Below, piece by piece: positions 18,951 to 20,554 of a DNA stretch of 35,195 bases. Position numbers and translations under genes: made by a program. Origin of the DNA: Bacteroidia bacterium. GTDB taxonomy: Bacteria > Bacteroidota > Bacteroidia > Bacteroidales > Marinilabiliaceae. The DNA is taken from assembly GCA_030526155.1 (NCBI GenBank), contig JAUNDI010000026.1, positions 1-35,195 of the forward strand, given 5' to 3'. The notes beneath the pieces were generated by a model, which did not search any database, was not told the DNA's origin, and saw only the letters and a list, made by a program, of their open reading frames with translations. Positions within the stretch are counted from its first letter, which is position 1, and every line of letters starts with the position of its first letter.

Positions 18951-18972
18951 TAAGGAGACATGACAATAGTAA

Positions 18973-19006
18973 GAAGAAAAACTGGCAAAGTTGTCAATTT
19001 TTCTTC
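18973..19006. terminator. Bidirectional terminator hairpin, also a degenerate repeat copy
   Basis: GAAGAAAAA (18973-18981) and TTTTTCTTC (18998-19006) pair, with partial pairing inside (TGGCAA/TTGTCA), giving a long stem with T-runs both ways between the convergent thi operon and ATPase gene. Its right part matches the repeats upstream of the ATPase in 19 of 23 positions (GGCAA-TTG-CA-TTTTTCTTC frame), in the same direct orientation. Confidence 0.65.
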
Positions 19007-19011
19007 GTTGA

Positions 19012-20271
19012 TTAATTGTTTAAGCTATCTATATCCATTAAGAAATCTATTAACCCCATAGTATATATGCCATTCTCATCACGCCATGGCTTGATACTAT
19101 CTTTCACAACAATAATCTTCTTGAAAGAGTCACTAATCTTCAATAGAGAAGCCATTTCCTGTTTTCGTTTATCCTCATCAGGAAGAGCTAATACCGACTG
19201 GATATAGTACCTTTGATTCCCCTCATTAACCACGAAATCAACCTCCAATTGCTTACGTTGCCATTTTCCTTCTGTATCTACGAAGCGATGTTCGACCATA
19301 CCAACATCCACCTTACATCCTCGGCGACGCAACTCGTTATATATTATATTCTCCATAATATGTGTCTCCTCTTGCTGACGTAAGCCCAAGATAGCATTAC
19401 GTATGCCGATATCAGAAAAGTAATATTTAGAAAGAGCACCTATATACTTTTTCCCCTTTACATCATACCTATCAGCACGCTCTATCAAAAAAGCGTCCTG
19501 CATATAATTGAGATAACGATTTATGGTAACTGAACTTATCGATACATTTCTTACGCTTTTGAATGTATTTGACAACTTAGAAGGATTTGTAGGAGAGCCA
19601 ATATTAGATGCAATTATTCTAACCAAATCAGAAAATTCCTGATTATTCTTTATACGATTACGTTCTATTATATCAACAAGATATACACTTTCAAATAGAT
19701 TTGACAAATAATCCAATTTCTTTTTCTCCGTTTCAAGAGATAAGACTTGTGGGAGTCCGCCATAAGTACAGTAATCTAACCATGCTTTTTCAGGAGCGAG
19801 AGCCACTCCCTCACAGTATTCAGCGAAAGAGAGCGGATATAGACGAATTTCATCACCTCGTCCACGGAATTCAGTAATAATATCACTCGACAAGAACTTA
19901 GAGTTACTACCTGTCACATAGACATCGACGTTACTTATTCGCAAGAGACTATTTAACACCTCTTCGAATCGAGGAACTAATTGAACCTCGTCAAGAAGTA
20001 TGTAATACGGTTCGTCATCTAGTATTCTTGACTTGATATGCTTATATAAAGATAATGGGTCACGCAGATTAGCCGACTCTATATCATCAAGAGCAATTTG
20101 AATAATATGGCTATCATTAACATCACACTTTAGCAGGTGTTGCCTAAACAATGTGAAGAGAAGGTATGATTTACCACAACGTCTGATACCAGTCACAATT
20201 TTAATCAAGCCATTATGTTTACCATCAATAAGTTGTTGAAGGTAGAAGTCTCTTTTAATCTGCATACGCAC
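19012..20271 (-). CDS. AAA ATPase of the AAA_14/DUF4143 type
   Basis: This 419-residue protein has an N-terminal P-loop ATPase: Walker A G-I-R-R-C-G-K-S (28-35) and Walker B YYILLDEVQ (89-97). GSNSKFLSSDIITEFRGRGDEIRLYPLSFAEY follows, typical of AAA_14. The DUF4143 part (about 190-390) has LSNTFKSVRNVSISSVTINRYLNYMQDAFLI (read in two halves, a winged-helix-like region), YYFSDIGIRNAILG, and LEVDFVVNEGNQRYYIQS, which resembles a worn PD-(D/E)XK nuclease-like core. The family is very common in Bacteroidetes genomes and has no settled function. The gene is on its own, opposite to its neighbours. Palindrome-centred repeats overlap its promoter and one lies at its 3' end. A start at 20265 (two residues shorter) is equally possible. 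Confidence 0.93.
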   Translation of the reverse strand: MRMQIKRDFYLQQLIDGKHNGLIKIVTGIRRCGKSYLLFTLFRQHLLKCDVNDSHIIQIALDDIESANLRDPLSLYKHIKSRILDDEPYYILLDEVQLVPRFEEVLNSLLRISNVDVYVTGSNSKFLSSDIITEFRGRGDEIRLYPLSFAEYCEGVALAPEKAWLDYCTYGGLPQVLSLETEKKKLDYLSNLFESVYLVDIIERNRIKNNQEFSDLVRIIASNIGSPTNPSKLSNTFKSVRNVSISSVTINRYLNYMQDAFLIERADRYDVKGKKYIGALSKYYFSDIGIRNAILGLRQQEETHIMENIIYNELRRRGCKVDVGMVEHRFVDTEGKWQRKQLEVDFVVNEGNQRYYIQSVLALPDEDKRKQEMASLLKISDSFKKIIVVKDSIKPWRDENGIYTMGLIDFLMDIDSLNN

Positions 20272-20280
20272 CCCTATATA

Positions 20281-20314
20281 GGAAGATTTTTTGGCAATAT
20301 TGCCACTTTTTCTT
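20281..20314 (-). repeat. Palindrome-centred repeat, copy 1 (promoter-proximal)
   Basis: This 34-base sequence contains the perfect palindrome GGCAATATTGCC followed by ACTTTTTCTT. It is identical to copy 2 (20355-20388) except for one base. It begins 10 bases before the ATPase start and overlaps the expected transcription start site, a natural place for a repressor operator. Confidence 0.75.
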
Positions 20315-20316
20315 CA

Positions 20317-20324
20317 CAAAGATA
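20317..20324 (-). promoter_or_regulatory. -7 box (TATCTTTG) of the ATPase gene
   Basis: On the minus strand this is a perfect TAnnTTTG box lying between the two repeat copies, 46 bases before the start codon. No clear TTG element is seen 19-21 bases upstream; copy 2 lies just beyond that position. Confidence 0.55.
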
Positions 20325-20354
20325 GAGTAAATAGCGTAAATCTGTGATTACTTA

Positions 20355-20388
20355 GGAAGTTTTTTTGGCAATATTGCCACTTTTTCTT
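20355..20388 (-). repeat. Palindrome-centred repeat, copy 2 (promoter-distal)
   Basis: Same 34-base sequence as copy 1 with one substitution, in direct orientation, 74 bases away start to start, with the core GGCAATATTGCC at 20367-20378. Copy spacing is about seven helical turns, which would suit binding of two dimers on one DNA face. Confidence 0.75.
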
Positions 20389-20481
20389 TATTGATAAAAC
20401 TATCGAATTACCTTGAAAGAGGGATATTCGGAGAAAGAGGAAGAGATTATTTACCGACAAAATGCACTTTTTTCATTTTTT

Positions 20482-20514
20482 TCTTGCGTATTGAAAAAAC
20501 TTGTCATACCTTTG
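20482..20514 (+). promoter_or_regulatory. Promoter of the tRNA-Asn/tRNA-Leu unit
   Basis: TTG (20484-20486), 20 bases, TACCTTTG (20507-20514). It lies 40 bases before tRNA-Asn and matches the Bacteroidetes consensus well. Confidence 0.8.
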
Positions 20515-20554
20515 CACCGCTTTCGAGAGGGAAACCTAGTAGAAATGTGGTCAT

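Follow-up and report, generated by a model that had tools for sequence, protein, structure and literature searches.

The window, i.e., the whole stretch of 35,195 nucleotides that was analysed, carries on its minus strand an AAA_14-DUF4143 ATPase gene of 417 amino acids (19012..20265), whose promoter is bracketed by two 34-nt copies of a nested palindrome. The distal copy, site 1 (20355..20388), lies upstream of the promoter and, according to the comparison with relatives, forms the left edge of a transferable unit, and the proximal copy, site 2 (20281..20314), lies over the transcription start and the 5′ leader. The two copies are separated by a Bacteroidetes-type -7 box, TATCTTTG (20317..20324, minus strand), read from the sequence. 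As the earlier note had described, the copies around this box differ by a single mismatch; the extended repeat is identical at 35 out of 36 positions, with a start-to-start spacing of 74 nt. Judging from relatives, the ATG at 20265 is the likely start codon, rather than the GTG at 20271.

A decayed third copy, site 3 (18973..19006), which is also terminator-like, lies directly behind the stop codon. The existence of this copy, claimed earlier, is borne out by its score of 26, none out of 1000 shuffled versions of the 200-nt stretch following the gene attaining it (best score, 22), but its supposed same orientation is not, the inverted sense matching better (26/34, vs 72% over 36 positions in the same sense); moreover, since the repeat is a near-palindrome, its orientation carries little meaning. 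Intact counterparts of site 3 lie behind the gene at loci L012, L014, L052, L087, L089, L195, L200, and L201; altogether, a site copy behind the gene is seen at nine out of 114 loci, the first five of these and the decayed one in the window belonging to a set of 86 loci, and the last three, to a set of 28.

In the window genome, the palindromic sites at the ATPase promoter are near-private to the gene, as had been expected: the 12-nt core GGCAATATTGCC has two exact matches in the window and three in the 2.6-Mb genome assembly, the third being inside an unrelated ORF, and a BLAST search of the window genome with both sites for a regulon elsewhere yielded the sites themselves and 12 weak matches (E at least 0.28), two of them in an unrelated repeat. 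Contig C6 of this genome (L212, 1-420) contains a REP-like repeat pair with arms gagccttttca/tgaaaaggctc, unrelated to the sites.

The window protein matches the Pfam profiles AAA_14 (114 bits) and DUF4143 (80 bits) and the PADLOC profile PDLC04787 (408 bits, 1.1e-122) of PDC-S01, an AAA_14-DUF4143 family assigned to COG1373 and listed in PADLOC as a phage-defence candidate. No transposase or recombinase domain was found by Pfam, AAA_14 and DUF4143 being the only domains, and sequence searches of NCBIfam, PHROGs, and PDB with the ATPase gave no usable match. In PDC-S01, according to PMC12988326, an ATPase is joined to a PD-(D/E)XK-like domain; this candidate ranks fourth in frequency among the defences of prokaryotes and has been transferred repeatedly between domains of life, no validation of it being given there; it is the most frequent single locus in rumen genomes, with 10 358 occurrences (PMC13356809); its COG1373 is among co-shared, transferred genes (PMC10782964); and the expression of a DUF4143-labelled gene near a CRISPR locus in Thermus changed with plasmid DNA (PMC4406477). 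The open-licence literature searched yielded neither a tested function for PDC-S01 nor a report of promoter sites, a residue–letter code, or filled and solo alleles for this family; in the accessible part of PMC12988326, the terms “palindrom” and “autoregul” do not occur, and nothing is said there on promoter sites, a recognition code, or filled and solo alleles.

L013 and L062 were left out of the protein alignment due to their odd length. In 57 AAA_14-DUF4143 proteins, the Walker A, Walker B, and R-G-R finger regions are intact, with Gly26, Gly31, Lys32, Ser33, Asp92, Glu93, and Arg136 invariant and Arg134 present in at least 90% of the sequences. Motif III of DUF4143 reads Q-S-A (Gln356 invariant, Ser357 and Ala358 in at least 90%), and these proteins hence lack the (E/Q)-x-K of active PD-(D/E)XK nucleases. 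Lys366, present in at least 90% of these sequences, is a possible migrated lysine of the nuclease motif. Among 20 other DUF4143 loci, motif III is Q-x-[SAC] in 11 and E-x-K in three, and could not be placed in six.

The relatives studied comprised the best 80 of 569 confirmed loci from genome contigs and six viral loci, the viral contigs containing just six relatives of the ATPase; 29 further loci, collected later, were held out. In the genus of the window, 13 out of 15 genomes contain some match to the family, and only G005 and G014, besides the window genome, contain one with identity above 50%. The record titles of the relatives point to Bacteroidales, Clostridia, and spirochaetes (Bullifex was checked), many of them being metagenome-assembled genomes, so that some taxon labels may be wrong. 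Both by eye and by computation, a nested palindrome of about 38 nt adjoins the start codon in the relatives. It consists of an outer arm (often ATTnnn...nnnAAT), an A-tract, an inner 12–14-nt dyad, an A/T tract, and the second outer arm; its letters vary among the relatives, and the layout is kept. The literal motif GGCAATATTGCC, whose enrichment near such genes the earlier note had named as a check, was rejected as a family signature due to this variation; among the relatives collected, it was met again only in L013, a 77% relative.

The two-site arrangement of the window recurs in about half of the relatives. Among 84 loci with 170 nt of upstream sequence present, the best direct repeat is spaced by 72–77 nt in 45, vs 10% of shuffles, and a second site copy scoring above all 30 shuffles is detectable at 47, in 37 of them with the 72–77-nt spacing. 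Similarly, 12 out of 29 held-out loci have a second copy above shuffles, nine of them at 74–76 nt. About half of the loci have one clear site only. A TAnnTTTG box between the sites is found at 45 out of 60 Bacteroidales-type loci, vs 2.5 expected. Scoring of dyad pairs alone is weak, with 34 out of 84 loci above 20 shuffles.

To relate the site letters to the protein sequence, we used only rows with a clear even dyad, i.e., 49 out of 87 aligned training loci and 19 out of 29 held-out ones. The outer arms covary with residue 246 (codon 19528-19530, minus strand; Val in the window protein): in the 49 loci, with correction for overall divergence, the partial correlation is 0.75, the next column reaching 0.41. 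By the general organization of winged helices, ISSVTINRYLNYM of the window protein (segment of residues 243–256; 19498..19539, minus strand) is likely to be the recognition helix, which residue 246 opens. Loci with Lys246 have full ATT[AC]C...G[TG]AAT arms in 18 out of 41 cases and never the arms typical of Asn246, and loci with Asn246 have ATTGA...TCAA[TC] arms in 10 out of 20 cases and never those typical of Lys246; under a looser rule for the arms, 34 Lys and 15 Asn loci agree, and one (L034) disagrees.

The inner core, in turn, covaries with residue 327 (codon 19285..19287, minus strand; Arg in the window protein), located in the nuclease-like part of DUF4143. Core GGC accompanies Lys327 in 12 out of 12 loci, and GAC accompanies Arg327 in eight out of eight, with seven changes of each on the tree, which was built without the columns under test and with L121 dropped; position 327 had been chosen on 16 of these 20 loci. 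In the training set, column 327 ranked fifth for the inner core in the first correlation and second in a later ranking. Because of that fifth rank, both residues were tested on the held-out loci, where, among 333 columns in 19 loci, 246 ranked first for outer positions 15–16, and 327 ranked first for inner positions 4–5; the held-out rows are partly dependent, L182 being 94% identical to the training locus L015 and five held-out pairs being 85–94% alike. Prediction of the majority word from the training set was correct in seven out of 14 held-out rows for residue 246 and in two out of 15 for residue 327, the low success being due to Lys going with either GT or GG and to Asn327 being rare in the training set.

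In the 68 pooled rows, Lys246 is accompanied by G at position 15 in 28 out of 28 cases, vs two out of 40 for other residues (six independent pairs, none opposite; median p 0.03), Asn246 by TC in 12 out of 12 (three out of 56 others), and Asp246 by CG in four out of five (two out of 63 others). For residue 327, the preferences are Lys–GG (11 out of 11, vs two out of 56 others), Asn–CG (10 out of 12, vs none out of 55), and Phe/Tyr–CA (11 out of 13, vs none out of 54). None of the six independent-pair tests gave opposite pairs, and only Lys246 has enough pairs to reach p < 0.05. As for the residues of the window protein itself, Arg327 is paired with several cores, and Val246 is too rare for a rule; L013 (77% identity) shares both Val246 and the site letters of the window, which kinship alone could explain. 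On this covariation, the protein appears to read its site, the outer arm via residue 246 and the inner core via residue 327. The loss of the lysine and the covariation of residue 327 with the inner core suggest that the nuclease-like domain has turned into a sequence reader.

The distal site also coincides with a boundary of DNA homology. Of 37 locus pairs whose DNA identity is 84% or more, 30 lack any similarity between their flanking genes (tblastx over the flanks; the pairs share members and are not independent). Boundaries were analysed with pairs having similar or short flanks excluded: in 78 pairs with at least 80% identity and without similar flanks, the homology extends from a median of −117 relative to the ATG to 0 relative to the stop codon, the left ends falling at −137 to −95 in 64 pairs and extending further in six, and the right ends falling within 10 nt of the stop codon in 72 and extending further in four. 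No consistent right end beyond the stop codon is seen across the family in these 78 pairs. L053 (titled Acetatifactor) and L078 (Bullifex, a spirochaete) are 90.6% identical at the DNA level. Seven out of 80 units have a contig edge at most 150 nt from their end, vs 1.97 expected, as happens with repeated or polymorphic DNA. By the position of these ends, it is the unit from the distal site to the stop codon that has spread without its flanks.

Several loci have peculiar surroundings. The contig of L014 (1-210) opens with the 3′ end of the gene itself, followed by the site, the promoter, and the gene, so that a tandem or circular form is possible. The copy from Segatella copri, L013 (3001-4020), misses an internal stretch after approximately residue 320, and the DNA before its site (upstream of 3001) apparently encodes a C-terminal piece of the same gene. 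Other direct repeats flank the units at L204, L196, and L199, and an inverted one, at L205; these are not clearly the site and may be element ends or duplications.

The loci L195, L200, and L201, with a site behind the gene, all come from one genus, g84, where alleles with and without the unit could be compared. The core of this genus, TGCGTATATACGCA, has 29 exact matches in 11 out of 26 genomes, vs one for the reversed pattern; 15 of these sites are at six units, and 14 are solo. Locus X has cvfB on one side and an EF-G-like gene or other neighbours on the other; there, G424 and G288 contain the unit, and seven genomes, a solo site. The filled allele of G424 aligns with the solo allele of G413 on both sides (left, 271 bp at 95.2%; right, 2566 bp at 95.8%) and exceeds it in length by 1413 bp, the site being contained in a direct repeat of 73 bp; G288 (filled) and G354 (solo) share 103 bp at 88% and 178 bp at 97%. 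In the empty allele of G412, the EF-G-like gene is directly followed by cvfB without a site, and 337 bp of the G354 solo allele are absent. Combinations of flanks at locus X are mixed between species, and locus X is the only one where filled and solo alleles are supported by flanks on both sides. The support is one-sided at locus W (G199 filled, G426 solo; 2199 bp at 93.3%) and at locus Z (G354 and G415 filled, G288 solo; 129 bp at 93%), and consists of a shared neighbour gene only at locus Y (G407 filled, four genomes solo).

The residue–letter correspondence holds within this genus as well: the sites of locus X have D-type arms, and both X units, including that of G424, encode Asp246, and the other four units have N-type sites and encode Asn246; all six encode Asn327. 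In G424, G288, G354, and G415, the site is intact on either side of the unit, so that the insertion does not interrupt the recognition site in the manner of homing endonucleases.

Two further observations concern the neighbourhood of these sites. In G288 (L226, 3475-4834), the interval from site 3 to cvfB contains a further PDC-S01 gene, which belongs to another subfamily, and approximately 1360 bp at this spot are absent from G354, which makes a second clean gain or loss there. At loci Y and W, the site is accompanied by a second repeat: the sequences to its right have a stretch in common that includes a TGCGGCTC...GAGCCGCA hairpin (L225, 3411-3516; L251, L222, L242, L244, L248).

Empty sites in related strains, anticipated in the earlier note, are represented by the filled, solo, and empty alleles of g84, but no clean empty site was found in relatives for the window locus itself. 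In G012, from the genus of the window, thiE and the tRNA-Asn/tRNA-Leu/purD block are still adjacent, with another gene in between, and the DNA likeness to the window ends at 20463, 75 nt from site 1; the spot at 18951-20540 is variable, a different gene filling the gap in G012. For L091, the flanks needed for an empty-site comparison within the genus are on different contigs. Repeats without the gene, which the same note would have counted against its reading, do exist in g84 as solo sites, but they mark spots where sister species carry the gene.

Taken together, these data support both arms of the earlier suggestion, in which the palindrome, bound by the ATPase or a partner, is an autoregulatory operator or forms the ends of a small mobile unit. 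The operator arm draws on the palindrome at the start site, the second one upstream of the promoter in about half of the loci, the TAnnTTTG box between them, and the letters that follow two residues; the mobile-unit arm, on the homology of relatives stopping at the distal site and the stop codon, and on the allele series of one genus. From covariation and placement, it is most likely the ATPase that binds the sites and governs its own promoter. We consider it probable that these sites are bound by the product of the gene, which thereby controls the promoter, and that they also delimit the DNA undergoing gain and loss; one site type seems to serve both the operator and the mobile-end roles.

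Under this preferred reading, the gene product, an AAA+ ATPase that combines a winged helix with a nuclease-like fold devoid of the usual catalytic lysine, would bind nested palindromes of about 38 nt placed around the gene; the outer arms would be read by the winged helix via residue 246, and the inner core, by the nuclease-like domain via residue 327. Occupying the start site and, in loci that have it, the second site, usually about seven helical turns further upstream, the protein would shut off or gate its own promoter, by placement and spacing probably through bridging of the two sites; about half of the loci have no detectable second site, and therefore a looping pair cannot be general. 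The same sites would delimit the unit as a segment subject to gain and loss, with a further copy behind the gene in some lineages and solo-site alleles persisting in the absence of the gene. These solo sites may serve as insertion targets or may have been left by deletion between direct copies.

The regulatory half of this reading could also stand by itself, the palindromes being ordinary operators through which a defence-type gene regulates itself, while the gene is carried along passively by homologous or illegitimate recombination and hitch-hiking, with copies behind genes produced by tandem duplication and solo sites left as deletion scars. We see the case for this as nearly balanced, falling slightly on the unfavourable side. 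The operator-like placement and the protein–site covariation are in line with it, 105 out of 114 units have no site behind the gene and the units end at the stop codon, the L014 contig opening resembles a tandem, and the 73-bp direct repeat around a 1.4-kb unit alone could yield solo alleles by deletion. It fits less well with units of 84–90% DNA identity that lie between unrelated flanks with sharp bounds, and with the intact sites that several chromosomal loci of one genus have, of the type matching the unit of the sister species at the same spot. Active movement, in which the ATPase, by itself or together with a host enzyme, would place the unit at or next to a cognate site, with solo sites as homing targets and the outer copies as the ends of the unit, agrees with the filled, solo, and empty alleles, the pairing of Asp246 units with D-type and Asn246 units with N-type sites in one genus, the excess of exact core sites over the reversed pattern in the 26 genomes, and the unit edge at the distal site. 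However, the usual PD-(D/E)XK lysine is replaced in Q-S-A, no transposase or recombinase domain is found, no consistent right end is seen beyond the stop codon, the sites are intact in filled alleles, unlike in classical homing, and scars could account for the solo sites; we regard self-catalysed insertion as rather unlikely.

Two other explanations place the ATPase outside the function of the sites. If the palindromes were intrinsic terminators or RNA hairpins with only a structural likeness, this would agree with both window copies being terminator-like on the plus strand, albeit with weak scores, and with the third copy behind the gene; but the distal copy is upstream of the promoter and thus outside the gene's own transcript, a terminator leaves unexplained why the letters track protein residues, and Rfam gives no match, so that this explanation is disfavoured to the point of being hardly credible. 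Xer-dependent elements are small units flanked by palindromic sites, and by analogy another host DNA-binding protein, e.g., a Xer-like recombinase, might use the sites, with the ATPase as a passenger. Yet the letters differ widely, even within one genus (D- and N-type arms), and follow the residues of the ATPase, which makes a host reader very improbable.

The preferred reading, that the ATPase reads the sites which control and delimit its own gene, has counterparts among known systems. BrxR/CapW are autoregulated defence regulators, whose winged-helix dimer binds inverted repeats at its own promoter. The winged helix and the inverted repeats at the own promoter are common to both cases, binding being a prediction here, but the putative reader is the ATPase itself, the palindrome is double (nested), for two domains, and the unit consists of one gene. 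In REP/RAYT and similar elements, a single gene is bracketed by palindromes, with solo copies elsewhere in the genome; the units studied here are likewise palindrome-bracketed one-gene units with solo copies, but they have no Y1 transposase domain, solo copies are few (14 in 26 genomes), and the letters are lineage-specific and tied to the protein. An AAA+ ATPase and the PD-(D/E)XK fold serve DNA mobility in Tn7 (TnsA/TnsC) and, through the ATPase IstB, in IS21; these folds recur here, but both are in one protein, the lysine of motif III is missing, and the unit has no separate transposase.

What is already known is PDC-S01 as a transferred defence candidate; relative to the literature searched, the new elements are the sites, the residue–letter code, and the allele series. 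A DNA site predicted for each member from two residues would make binding, regulation, and movement of the family testable together, and a self-reading unit would account for the passage of one gene between phyla without its flanks. Further, and as a possible but doubtful extension, PDC-S01-type genes, or at least this subfamily, might form an unrecognised class of single-gene mobile element, in which an AAA+ ATPase whose nuclease fold has degenerated locates, controls, and re-occupies the sites that serve as its address by a fast-diverging two-residue, two-domain DNA code, so that units of different codes coexist. If this were true, one of the commonest prokaryotic “defence” genes would be at least partly selfish and self-addressed.

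The 75-nt layout was found at none of the 30 scored loci (34 tried) of other DUF4143 subfamilies; six out of the 30 have promoter repeats above shuffles, with other spacings, one of the six, that of L104, not being confirmed at the same place as L003. From such repeats, self-reading may be wider than this subfamily. The upstream promoter repeats at L102, L103, L110, L111, and L115, all from other DUF4143 subfamilies, have spacings of 52, 64, 67, and 96 nt.
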